Assembly (NCBI GenBank): GCA_015233625.1
Contig: JADFXK010000001.1
Location: 9,537-51,923, forward strand
Reading direction: 5' to 3'
Length of the DNA: 42,387 nt
DNA from: Deltaproteobacteria bacterium
Lineage (GTDB): Bacteria; Desulfobacterota; JADFXK01
Shown here in pieces: positions 31,690-42,387 of the stretch. Numbering within the stretch: position 1 is the first letter of the stretch; each line of letters opens with the position of its first letter. Made by a program: the position numbers and the translations under genes. A model generated the notes under the pieces. That model saw only the letters and a program-made list of their open reading frames with translations, did no database searches and was not told where the DNA came from.

Positions 31690-32475
31690 ATGTTCCCGAC
31701 CATTGTCCGGCTGGGTCCTTTGGCCATCCACACTTACGGTGTTCTTATCGCCACGGCTTTTCTGGCCGGCGTGGGCCTGGCCATGCGGGAAGCCCGGCGG
31801 TTGGGCCAGGACCCGACCAAGGTCATGGACCTGTCTCTATATATCGTCATCTCCGCCATTGTTGGTTCCCGCTTACTCTATGTCCTGCTTAAATTTGATT
31901 ACTATATCAAAAAGCCCCTAAATATCTTTATGATTTGGGAAGGCGGGCTGGTCTTTTACGGTGGTTTGATAGGTGCCTTGATCGTGGGTCTGTGGTACAT
32001 GCGGCGGCATGGGCTGAATATGTGGCAGACCTGCGATATCTTTGCTCCGTCTCTGCCGCTGGGCCAGGCCATTGGCCGGCTGGGTTGTTTTTCGGCGGGA
32101 TGTTGCTATGGCAGCCCCACCAACCTCCCCTGGGCCGTGACCTTCACCAATCCCGAGACCTTGGCCTCACCCCTGGGCGTGCCGATCCATCCCACCCAGT
32201 TGTATTCTTCGGCCATTGGTTTGGTGATTTTCCTCATTCTAATGATCATGCGGAAACACAAAAAGTTCGACGGCCAGTTGATCTGGGTCTATGTCGTCTT
32301 GTCGGGAATAGGACGTTTCTTCGACGAATTCTGCCGGGCTGATTTCCGCGGTCCGGAAGTCTTCGGCGTCATTTCCACCACCCAGGCGATCAGCATTGTC
32401 AGCGTCATAGTCGGCGTGGTCATGCTCATCATCTTAGGCAAGAAGCACCAGTTGGCACCTAGGCCCAACCCGTGA
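31690..32475 (+). CDS. lgt: Prolipoprotein diacylglyceryl transferase
   Basis: This 261-residue polytopic inner-membrane enzyme transfers diacylglycerol from phosphatidylglycerol to the lipobox Cys. The motifs HTYG (14–17), GGLVFYGG (about 85–92), and GRLGCFSAGCCYG (about 129–141, in place of GRxGNFxNxE), then HPTQLYS and the C-terminal GIGRFFDEFCR are all present. It follows lspA by 2 bases and ends the ileS operon, before a strong terminator. A fragment of another lgt copy lies at 38571. Confidence 0.96.
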   Translation: MFPTIVRLGPLAIHTYGVLIATAFLAGVGLAMREARRLGQDPTKVMDLSLYIVISAIVGSRLLYVLLKFDYYIKKPLNIFMIWEGGLVFYGGLIGALIVGLWYMRRHGLNMWQTCDIFAPSLPLGQAIGRLGCFSAGCCYGSPTNLPWAVTFTNPETLASPLGVPIHPTQLYSSAIGLVIFLILMIMRKHKKFDGQLIWVYVVLSGIGRFFDEFCRADFRGPEVFGVISTTQAISIVSVIVGVVMLIILGKKHQLAPRPNP

Positions 32476-33357: not shown

Positions 33358-35199
33358 CTACAAGGCGCAGGGGCAACCGGCCGACCAGAAACGCCCGTCT
33401 GAACCCATGATGACCAGATGGGCATGATTGCCGTCGGGATGCAGGTACCCACAATCGCCGTGCGTGTGCTTGGGCGGGGCGGAGTTGGAATTGTCGTAGC
33501 CTCCGTATCGGGCCACGGGAGACCAGTCCGGGCTGACCGGCGGCATCGGCGGGGCTAGTTCGGAGAACTCTGCTGCGGCATACACGGGTTTTCCGCCTAA
33601 TATGGTCAGGACGCTCTCAATGCCGCGGATCTCATCTTCCTCGACAGCGAAATAATCCGCATTCAAGACGGCCAGGTCAGCCAGATAGCCACTCACCAGC
33701 CGGCCTTTGCGATGGTCATCCCGGCTGAACCAGGCGCTGCCGGAGGTGTACAGCCTCAAAGCTTCCTCGCGACTGAGTCGGGACTTCTTATCGCCGGTAA
33801 GGAGGGTCCCGCCCACGCCCTTGCCAGACACCAGCCACCACAGACAGGTCCAGGGATGATACGAGGCCACCCGAGTTCCGTCTGTTCCGGCCCCGACCGG
33901 CAGGCCCAGTTCCATCATTTTCCGGATTGGCGGTTTGGCCTCCACGGCGGCTCGTCCGTAGCGCCGGATGAAGTATTCCCCCTGGTAGGCCATCCGATGC
34001 TGCACGGCGATGCCTCCGCCCAGGTTCAGGATGCGTTCCATGTTTTGCGGGGTAATCGTTTCGGCGTGGTCGATGAACCAGCGCAGATCATCGATGGGCG
34101 TGTCCCGGTGCACCCTCTCGAATAGATCCAGAAAACGGCCGATGGATTCATTGTAAGTGGCATGGATCCGCCAGGGCCATCGGGCTTCCGCCAGTTTCCG
34201 GATCACCTGTTCCAGTTCGATGTCCATAACCGGCCGGAGTTCGGGGCGAGGCTGCAAAAAATTCTCGAAATCGGCCGCACTCCACACCAGATTCTCGCCG
34301 GCCCCGTTGACCCGGAGCAGGTCGTCGCCGTCACCGGGATGGGTCAGGCCCAGCCACCGGGTGTAATCCTCCGCTTCGGTCCCGGATTTCTGGGCGAACA
34401 GGCTGTAGGCGATCCGGACAGTCAGGTCCCCCGCGTTGGCCAGTTGGCGGATGACCGCATAGTCTTCCGGGTAGTTCTGACCGCCCCCACCCGCATCTGA
34501 GGCGCTGGTGATGCCGAACCGGTTTAGTTCCCTCATGAAATGGCGCGTGGAATTCAACTGGTCCGGGAAGTTCAACTTGGGGGCGGTGGCGATGGCCGAA
34601 TAGAGGATCAGGGCATTGGGTTCGGCGATGAGCAGACCGGTGGGTTGGCCGCGGGCGTCCCGGGCGATCACGCCGCCTGGGGGATTGGGAGTGGTTTCAT
34701 CAAAGCTCAGGGCCCGTAATGCGGCCCGGTTAAGCAGGGCGCAATCGTACAGGTGCAGGACAAAAACGGGAGTGTCCGGAGCGGCCGCGTTGATCTCTTC
34801 CAGGGTCGGCATCCGGCCTTCGGCAAACTGCAGTTCACTCCAGCCGCCGATAACCCGGACCCACTGGGGCGGCGGAGTCCGCTGGGCCTGTTCCTGGAGC
34901 CGACGCATGGCCTCGGCGATCCGGGGCACGCCATCCCACCGCAGTTCCAGGTTGTAAAACAGCCCGGCCCGGATGACGTGCAGGTGGGAGTCGTTGAGCC
35001 CGGGGATCACCCGGCGGCGTCGAAGGTCAATCTGCCGGGTCCCGGCATCACCCAGAGCCAGGATGGTCCGATCATCACCCCCGGCCGTGACCAGTCCGTC
35101 TTTAACGGCCAGGGCGGTGACTTCCGGCTGCCGCGGATCATTGGTGGTGATCCGGCCGTTGTACAGAATCAATTCCGGGGCCGGGTTGGGGCCGGTCAT
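33358..35199 (-). CDS. Amidohydrolase-superfamily enzyme (YtcJ-like)
   Basis: This 613-residue TIM-barrel metal-dependent hydrolase begins with a beta strand domain (ILYNGRITTNDPRQPEVTALAVKDG) that leads to the metal motif NDSHLHVI. The barrel continues with an IDHAE His and an Asp in GAGTDGT. The product would be a carboxylate or amine from an amide, ester or related bond; the substrate is unknown. Unusually, the last 70 residues after the barrel form a His/Cys-rich tail (KHTHGDCGYLHPDGNHAH…GCPCAL) that looks like an added metal-binding segment. GGGAGAGAACG precedes the ATG. It is co-transcribed with the pirin gene. Confidence 0.87.
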   Translation of the reverse strand: MTGPNPAPELILYNGRITTNDPRQPEVTALAVKDGLVTAGGDDRTILALGDAGTRQIDLRRRRVIPGLNDSHLHVIRAGLFYNLELRWDGVPRIAEAMRRLQEQAQRTPPPQWVRVIGGWSELQFAEGRMPTLEEINAAAPDTPVFVLHLYDCALLNRAALRALSFDETTPNPPGGVIARDARGQPTGLLIAEPNALILYSAIATAPKLNFPDQLNSTRHFMRELNRFGITSASDAGGGGQNYPEDYAVIRQLANAGDLTVRIAYSLFAQKSGTEAEDYTRWLGLTHPGDGDDLLRVNGAGENLVWSAADFENFLQPRPELRPVMDIELEQVIRKLAEARWPWRIHATYNESIGRFLDLFERVHRDTPIDDLRWFIDHAETITPQNMERILNLGGGIAVQHRMAYQGEYFIRRYGRAAVEAKPPIRKMMELGLPVGAGTDGTRVASYHPWTCLWWLVSGKGVGGTLLTGDKKSRLSREEALRLYTSGSAWFSRDDHRKGRLVSGYLADLAVLNADYFAVEEDEIRGIESVLTILGGKPVYAAAEFSELAPPMPPVSPDWSPVARYGGYDNSNSAPPKHTHGDCGYLHPDGNHAHLVIMGSDGRFWSAGCPCAL

Positions 35200-35288
35200 A
35201 TCGTTCTCTCCCTTTCTGATTTCCTCATCCGGTTTGCGTTCGGCGAGTTCGCTGGGCGATCAGGCAACTGCGGTTAGCAAACCAAGAC

Positions 35289-35479
35289 TTTATCCGCAGA
35301 TTACTCAGATTTTCGCAGATTAAGAAAATGCAAAATGATAGTGTCAGAAGGCTTGCATCCAGGCCGCGGTCGGCCAAAGTTCAGCAAATGATCGCAAAGT
35401 CTGTAGTCTCTTTAATCTGCGTTCATCTGCGTAATCTGCGGATACATTTTTTATTTCCCGATTTATAGGGCCCGTCAAC
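35289..35479. repeat. Fold-back intergenic repeat, copy 3
   Basis: From GCTTGCATCCAGGC through TTTAATCTGCGTTCATCTGCGTAATCTGCGGATAC it is almost identical to copy 4. It starts TATCCGCAGATTACTCAGATT, inverted relative to its end. A weaker shared tail runs to about 35479. It separates the amidohydrolase gene from the isochorismatase-family gene. Confidence 0.85.
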
Positions 35480-35493
35480 CTTAGGTTTTTACA

Positions 35494-36174
35494 CTATTTC
35501 TTCACCACATGCGGATTTTGGGCGGCCTGGGGAGCCTTGTGGACCATGGAATAGGCATACTCGATGCCGCAGCCGTAAGCGCCCGCATGTTCCCGGAACA
35601 GTTGCATGAGCGCATTATAGTGATCATGGTTGGCCCAGTCCCGCTGGAACTCCAGCACCGTGGCCACGGTGGTCATAGGCACGGCCCCCGCCTGGACACA
35701 CCGCCGGATAGCCGCATCATGAGCGACGTGGGAGGTGGCCCCACAGGCATCCTCCACGATGTAGACGTTGTAGCCTTCCTTGAGCATAGCCAGGGTGGGC
35801 CAGGTGACGCAGACCTCCGTCCACAGCCCGGCCACGACGATGTTCTTCTTCCCCGTGGCTTTGACGGCTTCCCGGAACGCGGGCGAGTCCCACGAATTCA
35901 TGCTGGAGCGCTCAATGGGCTGCCGGCCCGGAAGAGCATCCATCAGTTGCGGCCAGATGTAGCCGCTAAACGATTCCGTCTCCACCGCGGTCAAGATGGT
36001 GGGGATGCCGAACTCCCTGGCCCCCTTGGCCAGCAGAACCACATTGTTCATCAGAAGCAGCCGATCGATGTTGGCCACACCGAAAATCATCTGCGGTTGA
36101 TGATCAATGAAGACCACCGCGCAGTTGTCCTTGGTAATAAGGCCACTATCAGTGCCGGGTAGGATGTTCGCCAT
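35494..36174 (-). CDS. Isochorismatase-family cysteine hydrolase (YcaC-like)
   Basis: The start is placed at ATG 36174 (MANILPGTDS), which has AGGAGGAAG upstream; the track start at 36231 is less likely. The 226-residue protein is an isochorismatase-fold hydrolase with Asp24 (FIDHQ) and nucleophile Cys122 (AGLWTEVCV) of the catalytic triad, and the 'GATSHVAHDAAIRR' helix. YcaC-like members hydrolyse unknown small amides. The third triad position is not certain. Together with the amidohydrolase and pirin it may form a small hydrolytic pathway (inference). It is framed by two near-identical repeats. Confidence 0.9.
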   Translation of the reverse strand: MANILPGTDSGLITKDNCAVVFIDHQPQMIFGVANIDRLLLMNNVVLLAKGAREFGIPTILTAVETESFSGYIWPQLMDALPGRQPIERSSMNSWDSPAFREAVKATGKKNIVVAGLWTEVCVTWPTLAMLKEGYNVYIVEDACGATSHVAHDAAIRRCVQAGAVPMTTVATVLEFQRDWANHDHYNALMQLFREHAGAYGCGIEYAYSMVHKAPQAAQNPHVVKK

Positions 36175-36254
36175 GGGACTTCCTCCTTTATCCGTTGTGT
36201 TATCCAACATCAAAACTCTTCTGTGTCGCAATCGACAGCCCCGCCGCAGCCGAG

Positions 36255-36468
36255 GACCATGATTTAATCCGCAGATTGCGCCGATTGGCGCAGATTAAAA
36301 GCAATGCAAAACGCTTGTGCCCGAAGGCTTGCATCCAGGCCTCGGTCGGCCAAAGTTCAGAAAATGATCGCCTGGTCTGTGGTCTCTTTAATCTGCGTTC
36401 ATCTGCGTAATCTGCGGATACCTTTTTGGCCCCCAAATTACCAGACTCGTCGAACTCAGGTTATTCAT
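36255..36468. repeat. Fold-back intergenic repeat, copy 4
   Basis: This is the best-preserved copy: GACCATGATTTAATCCGCAGATTGCGCCGATTGGCGCAGATT on the left, TTTAATCTGCGTTCATCTGCGTAATCTGCGGATAC on the right, and the tail CCCCCAAATTACCAGACTCGTCGAAC shared with copy 1. The ends are inverted over about 33 bases with few mismatches. ORFs called here (36195–36564) are artefacts. Nothing else is seen between 36469 and 36647. Confidence 0.87.
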
Positions 36469-36647
36469 AGGAAATCAGGTTGCGGCAGGCAGGAAGGGAT
36501 GCCCTCGACCAAACGCGGCTCAAATTCCAAGCATGATATGAGCATTCACTCGGTTTGTAAATAGGGCGGGGGATTCATTTCTCTGGTGATTTTCCCGATT
36601 GGGCATGGATTTTTCCCGGTGGGGTTCATATGGGGGGATGGGTTCGA

Positions 36648-37364
36648 CTAGATGCTGCTCTCTCGTGGTTTAAGAATCATCTTCACTTCGACAACTCGCT
36701 GCTCTCGCGTGGATTGTCCAACAATGCGTACTCGCTGTTCCTCAGTAAACATTTCCAGGACCGTATCAAATTGCTCGACCGGAAAGCTACATTGTCGTTC
36801 TGGTTCACCAATAATCTCTCTCAAAGTAAATGTATATTTATCGCGATCAAGCTCTCTGATGATTCCTTCTTTATCAAATAGGGAAAATTCATCATCCGCT
36901 GAGGTGACTTGTTTTATAATCTCCCCTGGTATATTCTCTTCTTTTATCTGTTGGCCTGTGGCCTTAATCGGCAGTACCGGTTCCAGGTGCGGATAAAGCA
37001 GCACGTCTGCCTCTGGAAGTGCGTCTTCCGGTAAATCTTTTATTTGAATCTGCCAAGACTTCCTGACGCCCCAGTCGGTAGTCGTAATATCAACGAGCCA
37101 CATTATAGGTTGGTCTAATGCCTCCCGAATGGAAATAGTCCCTAACTTCAATTTGTCCACTATTGATGGGCGAGTCGGAGCCACCACGTATCGCAGTATA
37201 TCATCCTGATCATCGCTCAAGTAGGCGATAGCCAAACCGTTCAACGGAGTTTTAAAAGTAAAAATCAACGGTTCGTTGTATTCATACAGCATTTCTTCCG
37301 GAGGAAATAAGTTTCCGATGAGTTCCACCGGGTATTCAGGAGCGCTTACATCCCAAAGAGCCAT
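36648..37364 (-). CDS. Hypothetical protein, second gene of a coupled pair
   Basis: This 238-residue soluble protein is not confidently assignable. It begins with a strand-rich domain (MALWDVSAPEYPVELIG…LAIAYLSDDQDDILRYVVAP) that resembles small sensor or DUF6575-like proteins by eye, and it ends with IRELDRDKYTFTLREIIGE…VRIVGQSTREQRVVEVKMI. The start lies 2 bases after the stop of the upstream gene at 37367, so translation is coupled. It has no membrane helix and no nuclease or kinase motif. Confidence 0.65.
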   Translation of the reverse strand: MALWDVSAPEYPVELIGNLFPPEEMLYEYNEPLIFTFKTPLNGLAIAYLSDDQDDILRYVVAPTRPSIVDKLKLGTISIREALDQPIMWLVDITTTDWGVRKSWQIQIKDLPEDALPEADVLLYPHLEPVLPIKATGQQIKEENIPGEIIKQVTSADDEFSLFDKEGIIRELDRDKYTFTLREIIGEPERQCSFPVEQFDTVLEMFTEEQRVRIVGQSTREQRVVEVKMILKPRESSI

Positions 37365-37366
37365 GG

Positions 37367-37747
37367 TTATCCCCTGAATATTTCTTGAAAAGTTAAATGG
37401 CTATATTTCCAAAAAGTGGCATGACTCGGTACAGGTCCCTCGGTCATTTTAATCTTACCATGCTCCGGCTTGAGGTCAGCCACAATTATATACCTTTTTC
37501 TACGTGGAAACAACCGGCGTATTTCCACCGCATCTTCGACTGTCGTAGATACAGATAATCCACATCGTTGACACAGGTCCTGTCCCGGTTTGACTGGAAC
37601 ATTCATTTCGTGGAAAGTCTCAATATCGTGCTCACCGGGAGGATTTTCCTTTGAATGCCCATAAGCCGTAATATTTGCATCAACAGCGTCAGCCGGAGGA
37701 CAATTGGCCGGCCAGTCGTCTGGAAATCGCAATTCATCTTCTGGCAT
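37367..37747 (-). CDS. Hypothetical protein, first gene of a coupled pair
   Basis: This 126-residue soluble protein contains FPDDWPANCPPADAVDA near the N-terminus, a CQRCGLSV motif (one CxxC, possibly a metal site) and FPRRKRYIIVADLKPEHGKIKMT followed by a Ser/Thr–His–Trp stretch. I recall similar small proteins scattered in many genomes, but no function is known to me. GGAGAGAACCG precedes the ATG. Both genes lie on the minus strand directly beside the cassette region and may belong to it. Confidence 0.65.
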   Translation of the reverse strand: MPEDELRFPDDWPANCPPADAVDANITAYGHSKENPPGEHDIETFHEMNVPVKPGQDLCQRCGLSVSTTVEDAVEIRRLFPRRKRYIIVADLKPEHGKIKMTEGPVPSHATFWKYSHLTFQEIFRG

Positions 37748-38095
37748 TCGGTTCTCTCCGGTTCGTTTTCACATTATCCTCGTAAAAAATTGATTGATTT
37801 CCTTACGCTATATTTTTTTGAAAGTCAAGAAAGCAGTCGGCCGCCGGTCCCACGACCGGGAGACGAAGTTGCGTGGACCATGCCAGCCGAGCATCTTCTA
37901 GCACCTTGTGATCTTGGCGTTGAGCGAAAAGCCCGCTTCGATAAGCGAAAGGCACCGGCCTTGAACCATGCCTTCAAGGAATGATTCAGGAAAATGTCCA
38001 AGGTAATCTGTCAACGGAGGCTCATTTTGAACGAAACATTGAGCCACGTCGCACATAGTCGCGCAAGAAGCTGAACGGCCGTTCGCTGCGTCGGG
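37748..38095. other. Gap without a supported gene
   Basis: No gene or clear attC is visible. GGCTCA…TGAGCC (about 38017–38043) is a small inverted repeat, and ACTTAAC (38093–38099, minus strand) overlaps the stop of the next gene in the form of an attC left core (RYYYAAC), but no matching right core was found. Confidence 0.4.
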
Positions 38096-38557
38096 TTAAG
38101 TCCTTTGATGCGCGTAATGTTTCATTGCCCCTCTGGCTAGCATGCCAACAAGCAAGCATACTACTATGGACCATATAGCTTCTGCAAATATTAAAATGGG
38201 GTATTCAAAGAAATCCTGAGGAGTTATTAAGAAAAAAGTAATTTTCCGAAAAGATTCTCCCCCGATAGCAAATAAAAGCAAGTGGGCGATGACTCTTGCC
38301 TTGGCCGTGCAAGCAATGAGTGCTGCTGGTATTCCAAATGAGATTGACCTAAACAAAAAATGATAAAATAGAACCCGAGGATGGATTACGATTTCATACT
38401 CTCGGGCAACTCTAAAACTATCTTGAATTCCAGTCACGTTTCGAAATTCCACTACGACCGACCAGAATATGGTGTTTTCAGCCGCCGCCAATAATAAGGA
38501 AGCAAGCAAGAACACTATCAATGCTATCAGTAAGCAGTCTATGTTTATTTTTTTCAT
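38096..38557 (-). CDS. Small polytopic membrane protein (probable cassette gene)
   Basis: The 153-residue product starts with a signal-like helix (MKKINIDCLLIALIVFLLASLLLAAA) and has three further hydrophobic segments (about 65–85, 85–105 and 120–143). It has no recognisable family. The start is uncertain: ATG 38557 is chosen over GTG 38560, and neither has a good ribosome binding site. The stop overlaps an ACTTAAC core. Position and strand match the cassette array, but the fragment of lgt and a degenerate attC separate it from the next cassette. Confidence 0.55.
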   Translation of the reverse strand: MKKINIDCLLIALIVFLLASLLLAAAENTIFWSVVVEFRNVTGIQDSFRVAREYEIVIHPRVLFYHFLFRSISFGIPAALIACTAKARVIAHLLLFAIGGESFRKITFFLITPQDFFEYPILIFAEAIWSIVVCLLVGMLARGAMKHYAHQRT

Positions 38558-38570
38558 CACATATCACGAG

Positions 38571-38638
38571 CTTCACCAATCCGGAGACCCTGGCCTCACT
38601 ACTGGGCGTGCCGATCCATCCCACTCAATTATATTCTT
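38571..38638 (+). pseudogene. lgt: 68-bp fragment of a second lgt gene
   Basis: CTTCACCAATCCGGAGACC…CATCCCACTCAATTATATTCTT aligns without gaps to lgt 32143–32210 with 61 of 68 bases identical. The frame reads FTNPETLASLLGVPIHPTQLYSL, and most differences are synonymous, so the source was a functional but diverged lgt, not a recent copy of the one in this window. It ends abruptly on both sides and has no start. Confidence 0.85.
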
Positions 38639-38711
38639 TGACGATTGACTTATATGTTTGATAAGGTAGTTTTTGGCATGCCTTAATTTGAAGAGACCCA
38701 CACTTGGAATT

Positions 38712-38793
38712 TTGCATAAGGCTCGGACGCAAATAGCTCAGGGGATGGCAAGAAGTGCAGCTTTTTGCCATCCCCTGGAACGCAATGTTAGAT
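38712..38793 (-). other. Degenerate attC-like recombination site
   Basis: On the minus strand ATCTAAC (RYYYAAC core) follows 3 bases after the stop codon of the alpha/beta hydrolase gene. It is followed by ATTGC and GTTCCAG, very close to the usual attC left half (GCCTAACAATTCGTTCAAG). A 13-bp perfect stem, CAGGGGATGGCAA/TTGCCATCCCCTG, follows. The expected right core GTTRRRY is only GTCCGAG, so the site may be decayed or inactive. Confidence 0.5.
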
Positions 38794-38795
38794 AT

Positions 38796-39785
38796 CTATT
38801 TAGTGCGTACCAGTTTGAGTTTCCCATCTGATCCCGCTACTCGGGTAGGAATAACTGATCTATCGAGATCACCTTTTATAGTTTCAAAGAGATCGCGTGC
38901 AAATAGCTTATTGCCAATATGCCAGGAGTGATCGAAAGAGCCTAAGACATTCGTTTGGTCTGCCTTTTTGATCTCTTCATTTGAATCAAGTACCCTGAAG
39001 TAATCTGTGCAATCGATATTTACACCCTTTGTCGGAGCGTCGGCGGGCAATCCTACACGCCCAACTCGTGGTGCCAGACCTAGGCGCTTTGCATTGGATA
39101 GCTTCAACACCGAGTCACACAAGTTTGAGTAGTTCGTCAACCTGGTACAGTGCCTATACAAAGAATCTGTTGAGCTATTTCCATTAGTTAAAGAGGAAGA
39201 GGAGATATCGCCACCAATGAACGCAACCTGGCTGACAGTCCATGAGTTATTTGGTAGACGGGCGTCGTCGGCGTCGTCAAAGGCCTCTCGGATTACGTAT
39301 GCACCGGTTGAATGGCCGAGCAAATGGATATTGATGGTGCAATCCGGAGCTTGTCGAGCTGATAGTGCCAAAATTCCATCGGACACAAGTTGCATAGCCG
39401 TTTTCTTCGCATCGTGTCTGTCTTCCAGGTAGTTGATAGCCCAGTCATCGCTTGGCCAGTCGAATGACAAAATTTCACCTTTAAAACCTACGGAAGTCAA
39501 ATCACTCTTGAGCTGTGCATGGCGATCCATCACGGTTTTCTGGTTGTTGTTGTACCCATGCACAAATACGAGCAAATCACCTCGATCTCGCCCGCCGTTA
39601 CGAGAATCTTTGCCCCACGTTGCAGCCGTGCGTAGTTTCTTAAACCATTGATTAGTGTTCTTCACTGCCTGCTTTGGTGATGGAAGGTCGCCTTCCGGAA
39701 CAATCAAGAATAAGGATGGTCCGGGTTCGGCTATAAAGACACCACCTTCCACGGCACGGGCGCACATGACAAATTGGTCAGCCAT
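38796..39785 (-). CDS. Alpha/beta hydrolase (DUF900-like), probable cassette gene
   Basis: This 329-residue cytoplasmic protein has an alpha/beta-hydrolase fold. VFVHGYNN (about 73–80) forms the oxyanion loop, the nucleophile elbow is GHSTG with Ser159, and a His in FDHSWH (about 286–289) is the likely third member. It resembles DUF900-type esterases. The cassette structure is textbook: the ATG begins 22 bases after the right core of the attC at 39808, with AGGAG between, and the stop is 3 bases before the next core. The substrate is unknown. Confidence 0.8.
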   Translation of the reverse strand: MADQFVMCARAVEGGVFIAEPGPSLFLIVPEGDLPSPKQAVKNTNQWFKKLRTAATWGKDSRNGGRDRGDLLVFVHGYNNNQKTVMDRHAQLKSDLTSVGFKGEILSFDWPSDDWAINYLEDRHDAKKTAMQLVSDGILALSARQAPDCTINIHLLGHSTGAYVIREAFDDADDARLPNNSWTVSQVAFIGGDISSSSLTNGNSSTDSLYRHCTRLTNYSNLCDSVLKLSNAKRLGLAPRVGRVGLPADAPTKGVNIDCTDYFRVLDSNEEIKKADQTNVLGSFDHSWHIGNKLFARDLFETIKGDLDRSVIPTRVAGSDGKLKLVRTK

Positions 39786-39807
39786 TCTATTCTCCTATAG
39801 TGGTAAA

Positions 39808-39907
39808 GCCTAACGCCCGCCACCAGCCACTGCCGGAAGCCGAACCGACGCAGGAGCATAGGCTGTTCCCAGTCGGCTGCAAACCCTTGTCGGCTAGGAC
39901 GTTAGAA
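39808..39907 (-). other. attC recombination site (59-base-element type)
   Basis: On the minus strand the 100-base site starts with TTCTAACG and ends with GCGTTAGGC, a consensus right core (GTTRRRY). CTAACG pairs with CGTTAG, AGCC with GGCT and AGCCGA with TCGGCT, leaving unpaired bases between, as in attC hairpins. It lies between the stop of the GH19 gene and the start of the alpha/beta hydrolase gene, the expected location. The left core TTCTAAC departs by one base from RYYYAAC. Confidence 0.75.
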
Positions 39908-39952
39908 CAGACATTGGCAAGGTCTAAGGTGAGTTTGCCTCCTGGGTTGGTA

Positions 39953-40846
39953 TTATGACTGCGCTGAATTCTTTACTCCCTTGATTGTATCAAGTCCTCG
40001 CTTGATGGCATCTTCGGTGACCGGGCTGGCGATACCATCAGCAACAATGCCCACAGCAGCTTGAAAGTTCTTCACGGCCTGGCGCGTGGCTGGGCCATAG
40101 CGACCGTCAACGACGAGTTTAGGCACTGCCCCAAGGTCGTTGAGGGCTTTCTGAAGCCTCTCCACATTGTCGTCTTCGACGCTGGTTTGCCAAGGCTCCG
40201 CATCGGCGTTCAGCAACGGCCACACCATGTTGAACCATGCTTCCCGTTCGTCGAGTCCTGTCAAGCCACCGTTGATGCGCTTGGTGATGGTGATGATATC
40301 GTTCTTGTCCGCAAATGTGTTAAGGTTGTTTTCAGTCCACTCACCTACGGCTGGCTTCAAGGCGTGTGCAGGGTAAGTCACCAAATCGGGGTTGCCTACG
40401 AAATTAACTCCACAGAGGGTACCCATGTGCTGGTGGTTTCGTCGTCCAGTGGTTTGGAACATCCCGTTACCACGATAGAGAAATCCATCGCCTCGCTGTG
40501 TATTGCCGAGATCGTGCGCCTTGGACGGGTTGCCGAGGCCATAAACCCTCTCGGCGATGTCTTCCGGGTGGTGGGCGAGTGTCTCTGCCTCATCAGCCGT
40601 CACCGCAGCGCTATGATGGGCGCCAAATATCTTGAGGAGTCGCTGTGCAGAGTAGTTCATATTCTCGCGCAGGATCGTGAAGCCACCCGTCTCGTGCAAG
40701 GCCTGAGCCAGGAAATGCGTCATGCGCAGCGGTGTCGTGATCCTGTGTTCCTTAAACAGTGAGTCGCCTTGGCGGATTGCCTCAAGGTAATTGTCGAGCG
40801 CGTTGGTAGCCGTACGTCTGACCACGTTGATAGTATTGATCGTCAT
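39953..40846 (-). CDS. GH19 endolysin-like protein with peptidoglycan-binding domain
   Basis: The start is ATG 40846 (MTINTINVVRR) with AATGGAGG upstream; the track start at 40990 adds a non-conserved leader. The 297-residue protein has a GH19 lysozyme/chitinase domain (about 1–210), with the catalytic Glu52 in HETGGF and Glu61 in RENMNYSA. A PG_binding_1 domain follows (about 225–290, LQKALNDLGA…VDGRYGPATRQAVKNFQ). No signal peptide is seen, so export would need a holin or lysis. It resembles phage endolysins, yet no other phage gene is present. Flanking attC-like sites suggest it moves as a cassette. Confidence 0.88.
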   Translation of the reverse strand: MTINTINVVRRTATNALDNYLEAIRQGDSLFKEHRITTPLRMTHFLAQALHETGGFTILRENMNYSAQRLLKIFGAHHSAAVTADEAETLAHHPEDIAERVYGLGNPSKAHDLGNTQRGDGFLYRGNGMFQTTGRRNHQHMGTLCGVNFVGNPDLVTYPAHALKPAVGEWTENNLNTFADKNDIITITKRINGGLTGLDEREAWFNMVWPLLNADAEPWQTSVEDDNVERLQKALNDLGAVPKLVVDGRYGPATRQAVKNFQAAVGIVADGIASPVTEDAIKRGLDTIKGVKNSAQS

Positions 40847-40927
40847 GAAATCTACCTCCATTTTTGTCTGTGTTCGGTTGGAGAAGAAATCTGGACACCC
40901 CCGCGAAGTCGAACGTCGCGGGTAACT

Positions 40928-41000
40928 CCTTAACGACCATGGGCATGGGCTTGCAATAAAGGACTCCGAATACGCCCTATGGTTGCTCAACGGGTTAACT
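40928..41000 (-). other. Candidate degenerate attC site
   Basis: Between the stop of the Macro–SEFIR gene and the GH19 gene the minus strand reads AGTTAAC…GTTAAGG. TTAAC pairs with GTTAA, and CCATAGGGC pairs with GCCCATGG if one A bulges out, as in attC hairpins with extrahelical bases. Both cores depart by one base from consensus. It has the right position and length (73 bases). Confidence 0.4.
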
Positions 41001-41020
41001 CGCTGTCAGGTCATTATGTT

Positions 41021-42016
41021 CTATACCCAAACAGGTGGCTTCCCGACCGGCGGTGCAAGATCGATGTTATAGAGTTCCTTAAGAAGTCTTGTCCAGATTT
41101 CTCTACCATCATCGGCAGGGGCACAATGAAAGCAGTATTTTGTCTTTAAGTACTTGGGAACACCTTTCTCGAAATCCTGTTCTCTGATGATAGCCAGATA
41201 TTTGTTGTTGCCAGCCGGAAGATTCAACAGATCACCTTGAATAATCATCGTCTCCCATCCAACTCCGCCCGAGCGGCCGTCAGCCTTCGCAGCATATTGT
41301 GCATCTGAGACAATTACCACTCTGTCGGCCATTGCCAATTCGTTCGTCATCCATTGGGGCAGATCCATACCCTCGCGCAAGTGCCATTGGTCGAGACGTG
41401 CTTCGATGCCGTTGTCCCTTAGGTATGTCGCAAGCCCTGCCACCCAGCCCTTCTGCTCTTGGGTTGCACCAGTGTAGCTTATGAATACCCGAATCGGTTC
41501 TTTGACCTGTGGCTGCGGGACCAGGCCGGGGCCCGATGGTTTGACGTAGTTACTGAGGCGACGAAAAACATTCTCATGCAAGATGCTGATGGTTAGGATT
41601 GCATCCGGATGCGCTTTACTTTTAAAGCCCTCTGCAATTGCGTCAACCACATGCTCACTTCGGAGCCCGCCCGCACCTGCACCTAGGAGTGGAGCCGATA
41701 CAGCTCTGACTGATGAGTAATCTTGTGTGGCCGAGCCAAGCCGCGTTCCTATCAACCGAATAGCTGCGGTGGTAGAATGCATATTTATTACAGAGGCCGC
41801 AAATGCGACGTATTGAGCGATGTTCTCGCCACCTGTGAAGGGCATAATATCTACCTGGCCCAGCTCATATGCCCTTTTTGGGTCCGGTATCCTGTACTCT
41901 TGAAGTGCTGTAGCAACAAAACTCGTTATCGTCCCGCCCGTTGAGCAGGGCAATACAACTAAATCGGATGGCCCGTCAAATATGTTACCAAGTCGCAACT
42001 TAACAAGAGCAGCCAT
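41021..42016 (-). CDS. Macro-domain–SEFIR (TIR-like) fusion protein
   Basis: The start is ATG 42016 (MAALVKLRLGNIFDG), which has TAAGGAGG upstream; the track start at 42079 is less likely. The 331-residue protein has a macro-type ADP-ribose-binding domain at about 5–150. Its NIFDGPSDLVVLPCS first strand and APLLGAGAGGLRSEHVVDAI match the family's central motif. A short Pro-rich linker (160–172) is followed by a SEFIR/TIR-like domain (174–320). There RVFISYTG is box 1, LDQWHLREGMDLPQWM follows, and the GVGWETMII stretch places Glu255 where TIR NADases have the catalytic Glu. TIR domains can hydrolyse or cyclise NAD, and macro domains bind ADP-ribose products. A combined producer and reader, for anti-phage defence, is an inference. 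Confidence 0.85.
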   Translation of the reverse strand: MAALVKLRLGNIFDGPSDLVVLPCSTGGTITSFVATALQEYRIPDPKRAYELGQVDIMPFTGGENIAQYVAFAASVINMHSTTAAIRLIGTRLGSATQDYSSVRAVSAPLLGAGAGGLRSEHVVDAIAEGFKSKAHPDAILTISILHENVFRRLSNYVKPSGPGLVPQPQVKEPIRVFISYTGATQEQKGWVAGLATYLRDNGIEARLDQWHLREGMDLPQWMTNELAMADRVVIVSDAQYAAKADGRSGGVGWETMIIQGDLLNLPAGNNKYLAIIREQDFEKGVPKYLKTKYCFHCAPADDGREIWTRLLKELYNIDLAPPVGKPPVWV

Positions 42017-42387
42017 TGTTGAAATCCTCCTTACACATGACTTAGTCTCTACACGTTCTGGAGTCGTAACGTTCGACATGAACGGATTACACCGGCTTGG
42101 CCGTAGCGGTCGTTCGATGGCCCGATTTGGCAGTTCCGCTTACAGGTGCACCGGCCAATTTGTGTTGCCAACCTTTAGGAATCAGGTTGAGGCGGCTTCC
42201 AATTTCAGCAATGAAGTCTGTGAATGTGCGGCTTATCTGGTGAATGCCGTATTGAGTGTGATATACTACTCCAACTTAGGTTGTGACAGGCACGATTATT
42301 GCTTGCAAGCTGTGTTATAGACAAAAACAATATCTCATATATCCTCTAAAAGCCATAGTCCGTTTCGGACTTTCAACTTATTGCTTT
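42017..42387. other. Right edge, possible 3' remnant of another cassette gene
   Basis: No complete gene is seen. On the minus strand a frame open from 42275 to 42087 (VYHTQYGIHQISRTFTDFI…) looks protein-like but has no start codon. No clear attC was found before the Macro–SEFIR gene. The array or its attI and integrase would have to continue to the right of the window. Confidence 0.35.

Follow-up and report, generated by a model that had tools for sequence, protein, structure and literature searches.

The closest described systems to the locus analysed here are integron gene cassettes and the integrase-less clusters known as CALIN. In both, a gene is followed by an attC site with the layout R''-spacer-L''...L'-spacer-R'; the cassette after it opens with TTRRRY, its ATG lying about 20 bp further on. 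A CALIN is defined as a cluster of at least two attC sites less than 4 kb apart with no integrase nearby (PMC9668308), and Desulfobacterota are already listed among the integron-bearing bacteria (PMC8618304, PMC9668308). The locus in question shares the order of gene and attC, the position of the TTRRRY and the lack of a nearby integrase. It differs from integrase-linked loci in the degenerate state of its sites, which reach 11 bits versus 21-73 bits. In addition, its last site has no R'. The formal definition of a CALIN demands at least two significant attC sites; the two sites found here are 1 kb apart and each below the usual significance. In our assessment, a DUF900 hydrolase gene, likely together with the GH19-type gene preceding it, probably constitutes one or two integron cassettes in a variable chromosomal region, either as a small, integrase-less and CALIN-like remnant or as the degraded far end of an array truncated by the contig end.

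An accessory region at the contig end

The window, i.e. the whole stretch of 42,387 nucleotides that was analysed (G000:C111:9537-51923), belongs to a MAG that is 68% complete, and its right end at 42387 is also the contig end. Synteny with the same-genus genome G042 ends at 36642 and the DNA from there to the contig end is therefore regarded as accessory. The initial annotation described four minus-strand genes, and these were borne out by the gene calls:

36643-42387, no strand: accessory region
41021-42016, minus strand: SEFIR/TIR-domain gene for a bSEFIR-like defence protein (PADLOC bSEFIR, 2.2e-50; solved SEFIR domain 5y8e, 1.5e-20)
39953-40846, minus strand: GH19-type endolysin/chitinase gene with PG_binding_1 (PHROG endolysin, 1e-60; PG_binding_1, 3.1e-14)
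38796-39785, minus strand: DUF900 alpha/beta hydrolase gene, 329 aa (PF05990, E 1.4e-15), the hydrolase assignment being putative
38096-38560, minus strand: 154-aa ORF without an assigned family, hydrophobic on visual inspection

The Glyco_hydro_19 match of the GH19-type gene lies under the curated cut-off. The accessory region also contains a gene pair at 36648-37747, the second member of which is weakly similar to PADLOC PD-T4-10_B (3.2e-6), and this is possibly a defence pair. Further to the left, a segment of about 3 kb with amidohydrolase-like and isochorismatase-like ORFs (33533-36485) is missing in G042, where the homology joins 33532 directly to 36486. At the contig end, 127 bp (42261-42387) are identical to the start of contig C199 of the same assembly, in which this repeat is the 3'-terminal part of a 314-aa ORF; it is 88% alike in G042:C9. 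The assembly break at 42387 is probably due to this repeat.

Two probable attC sites flanking the DUF900 gene

Bare GTTRRRY cores occur in the window at chance frequency (70 versus 69 expected) and therefore provide no evidence for cassettes. Seven-bp cores are in general uninformative, and a covariance model combined with gene placement is needed. Such a model was built from 21 aligned, integrase-linked attC sites, which were collected from the intI neighbourhoods of genomes of the same phylum and whose stems covary across the alignment. At E<=0.1 it retrieves 114 attC sites in 51 intI loci, the 21 training sites counted in. A second, home-made attC profile was scored separately; none of 51 shuffled windows reaches a score of 25, and real non-array DNA yields two matches of at least 25 in 855 kb. 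A first crude scorer had assigned 16.2 to the site at 39808, a range in which 0.5 matches at or above 16 are expected per window, and was replaced by the covariance model. A search of Rfam returned no match in the window.

When the whole 42-kb window was searched with filters off, the two best matches of the covariance model were the sites flanking the DUF900 gene, on its own strand. Neither site is significant alone. The probability that two random matches flank any gene of the window within 100 nt and on the right strand is about 2e-4. The sites and the elements that they delimit are as follows:

39808-39907, minus strand: attC site 1, between the GH19-type and DUF900 genes (covariance match 39808-39895, 11.1 bits, E 1.5, best of the window; profile score 25.7)
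38722-38793, minus strand: attC site 2, 3' of the DUF900 gene (11.0 bits, E 1.6, second best of the window; fold z -4.35, folded as DNA)
38728-39813, minus strand: proposed cassette unit, comprising TTAGGC, the DUF900 gene and attC up to the crossover G
38568-38727, no strand: non-cassette DNA past site 2

In site 1, R' is a perfect GTTAGGC (39808-39814) that ends 22 bp before the ATG of the DUF900 gene at 39785, in agreement with the core that had been noted about 20 bases ahead of a start codon. Next to it lie a spacer (39815-39823), L' (39824-39832), L'' with the sequence CAGCC[G]ACTG (39870-39879) and a second spacer (39880-39888). The stem CAGCC[G]ACTG/CAGTGGCTG thereby comprises 9 bp with one extrahelical base, and both spacers are 9 nt long. 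R'' is either degenerate (AGCCGAC, 39889-39895) or displaced by 12 nt further out (TTCTAAC, 39901-39907); TTCTAAC as R'' entails a poor L''/L' pairing, and AGCCGAC with its 9/9 spacers is by far the better fit.

Site 2 begins with the R''-like ATCTAAC (38787-38793) 2 bp after the DUF900 stop codon, where a core just past a stop had also been reported. It continues with the spacer ATTGCGTTC (38778-38786), a long perfect stem within 38739-38777, the spacer AGCTATTTGC (38729-38738) and the crossover G (38728), which is followed by TCCGAG where TTRRRY is expected. R' is thus lost. In the last cassette of an array the TTRRRY is supplied by the neighbouring DNA, and the loss of R' at this position is therefore unsurprising. 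In the home-made profile, site 2 scores 17.7 as it stands and 39.8 once the cassette's own TTAGGC is attached to the G in silico. The latter value falls in the range of real attC sites, the gain being partly built in because a consensus R' is joined. The 65 bp at 38663-38727, which begin exactly at the crossover T, match intergenic DNA of G042, and 38568-38647 hold an 80-bp lgt fragment, 86% identical to the complete lgt gene that the window carries at 31690-32475.

The DUF900 gene is consequently followed by an attC in its own orientation, in a degenerate form, and preceded by the TTRRRY of another core and a short leader to its ATG. Nevertheless, one could regard the region as an ordinary accessory island in which both hairpins lie near genes by chance, with site 2 as a terminator or some other intergenic hairpin. 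Each site alone scores at background level (E about 1.5), and the long perfect stem of site 2 has no extrahelical base. Together with the non-consensus R'' of site 1 and R' of site 2, these points also weigh against the cassette reading. However, the occupation of both sides of one and the same gene is hardly expected from chance hairpins, and the hairpin of site 2 is neither followed by a T-run nor called as a terminator. In combination with the homologue described below, these points make the explanation by chance hairpins improbable.

Homologues of the DUF900 gene and the extent of the proposed array

The DUF900 hydrolase gene has a patchy distribution. Neither of the two same-genus genomes contains it and it occurs in 9/297 genomes of the phylum, while an 83% identical protein is encoded in Candidatus Nitrotoga (L126) and proteins with 62-67% identity are present in other distant bacteria; a search of plasmids yielded distant homologues only. 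Like the gene in the window, the Nitrotoga gene has a GTTRRRC core (GTTAAAC) 24 bp before its ATG, followed by a similar leader, and an R'' (GTCTAAC) 7 bp past its stop codon. It differs in its neighbours, in the phylum of its host and in the more advanced decay of its attC, which is too worn for the covariance model. In Nitrotoga, the counterparts of R'' and the adjoining spacer of site 2 have been retained but the stem has not, which argues against a terminator or an incidental hairpin. Among codons with a single change between the two genes, 131 are synonymous and 21 nonsynonymous, and the gene lineage has therefore been kept by purifying selection. A short likeness just past site 2 (TCAGAGCC/TCCGAGCC) between Nitrotoga and the window may be due to chance and was not used as evidence. 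Around 80 other DUF900 homologue loci only a single, unrelated attC match was found and none adjoins the gene; this favours chance hairpins and counts against the cassette reading. On balance, the attC sites on both sides, their orientation and spacing, and the boundaries in common with Nitrotoga support a putative gene-cassette character of the DUF900 gene.

The claim that all four genes are separated by attC-like sites is borne out for both sides of the DUF900 gene but is not confirmed beyond. The gap between the SEFIR and GH19-type genes (40847-41020) gave no match to the covariance model with filters off; a CAT[A]GGGC/GCCCATG pairing found there by hand lacked support from the model and was dropped. 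The gap between the hydrolase gene and the fourth ORF contains one half-degenerate attC and then the G042-like and lgt-derived DNA, and the 154-aa ORF has no cassette boundary of its own. A four-gene array with an attC between every pair of genes is thus not confirmed. Likewise, the spacings that had been interpreted as those of gene cassettes apply to the DUF900 gene and plausibly to the GH19-type gene, which has an attC at its 3' side only and possibly represents a second cassette. For the SEFIR gene in this window and for the fourth ORF, cassette status is unsupported.

Sites beside GH19 and SEFIR homologues elsewhere in the phylum were not convincing, with the exception of one genome. In G047:C265 (L220 483-1998), a full-length bSEFIR gene (E 2.8e-123) is directly followed past its stop codon by an attC of 22.9 bits, and the next gene begins shortly thereafter. 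This bSEFIR gene is likely a gene cassette in the same phylum and, by analogy, a SEFIR cassette would be possible in principle.

Integrases and cassettes in the genus and the phylum

In line with the initial annotation, which found no integrase in the window, no intI above the cut-off was detected in the 68%-complete MAG, whose contig stops at 42387. The best intI-like matches of this genome lack positions 186-239, the IntI-specific region, and no intI exceeds the threshold in the three genomes of the genus. The same-genus genome G005 contains three clear attC sites of 24-33 bits, two in tandem that follow an HNH gene and a third that precedes a gene for an Mrr-type nuclease (C255 and C220; L122 1439-1587, L123 1501-1563). 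These sites are located beside nuclease genes and, as in the window, have no detected integrase, but they are clearer and accompany different genes.

The incomplete genome and the contig end leave room for a complete integron, in which attI and a functional intI would follow just past 42387 and the SEFIR, GH19-type and DUF900 genes would all be cassettes. The bSEFIR gene of G047 with its attC and the frequency of intI in the phylum, where 107/297 sampled genomes have an intI over the cut-off, agree with such an arrangement. Against it speak the missing attC between the SEFIR and GH19-type genes, the failure to find intI in the genus, and the contig end itself, which is not attI-like but a repeat that also occurs 3'-terminally in another gene of the genome. 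We therefore consider a complete integron unlikely.

For the preferred reading, i.e. one or two cassettes in a remnant or at a worn array end, we infer past activity of an IntI and present inactivity of the sites. An integron integrase, which either acted from elsewhere or has since been lost, would have used the folded bottom strand of attC as its recombination substrate and linked the cassettes at G^TTRRRY. Every gene would thereby have its own attC behind it, with TTRRRY at the start of the following cassette. Later, R'' of site 1 would have decayed or been shifted out of place, while the present R' of site 2 would be either a decayed one or a contribution of the target DNA. With their off-consensus R'' and R', the two sites probably no longer serve as good substrates. 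As both are degenerate, a functional array is not supported.

What emerges is a DUF900 hydrolase gene whose cassette boundaries are common to the MAG and Candidatus Nitrotoga. The assertion that cassette arrays have rarely been described in such organisms is not borne out, in view of the published listing of Desulfobacterota and of our direct counts: with attC matches in 137/247 sampled genomes, in addition to the intI genes, both elements are common in the phylum that includes the former Deltaproteobacteria. More tentatively, integrons might be a main vehicle of genes for anti-phage defence and bacterial competition in this phylum, such as those for bSEFIR, Mrr and HNH nucleases and endolysin, and the window might then show one such case in decay, in a genus that harbours cassettes while lacking its own integrase.
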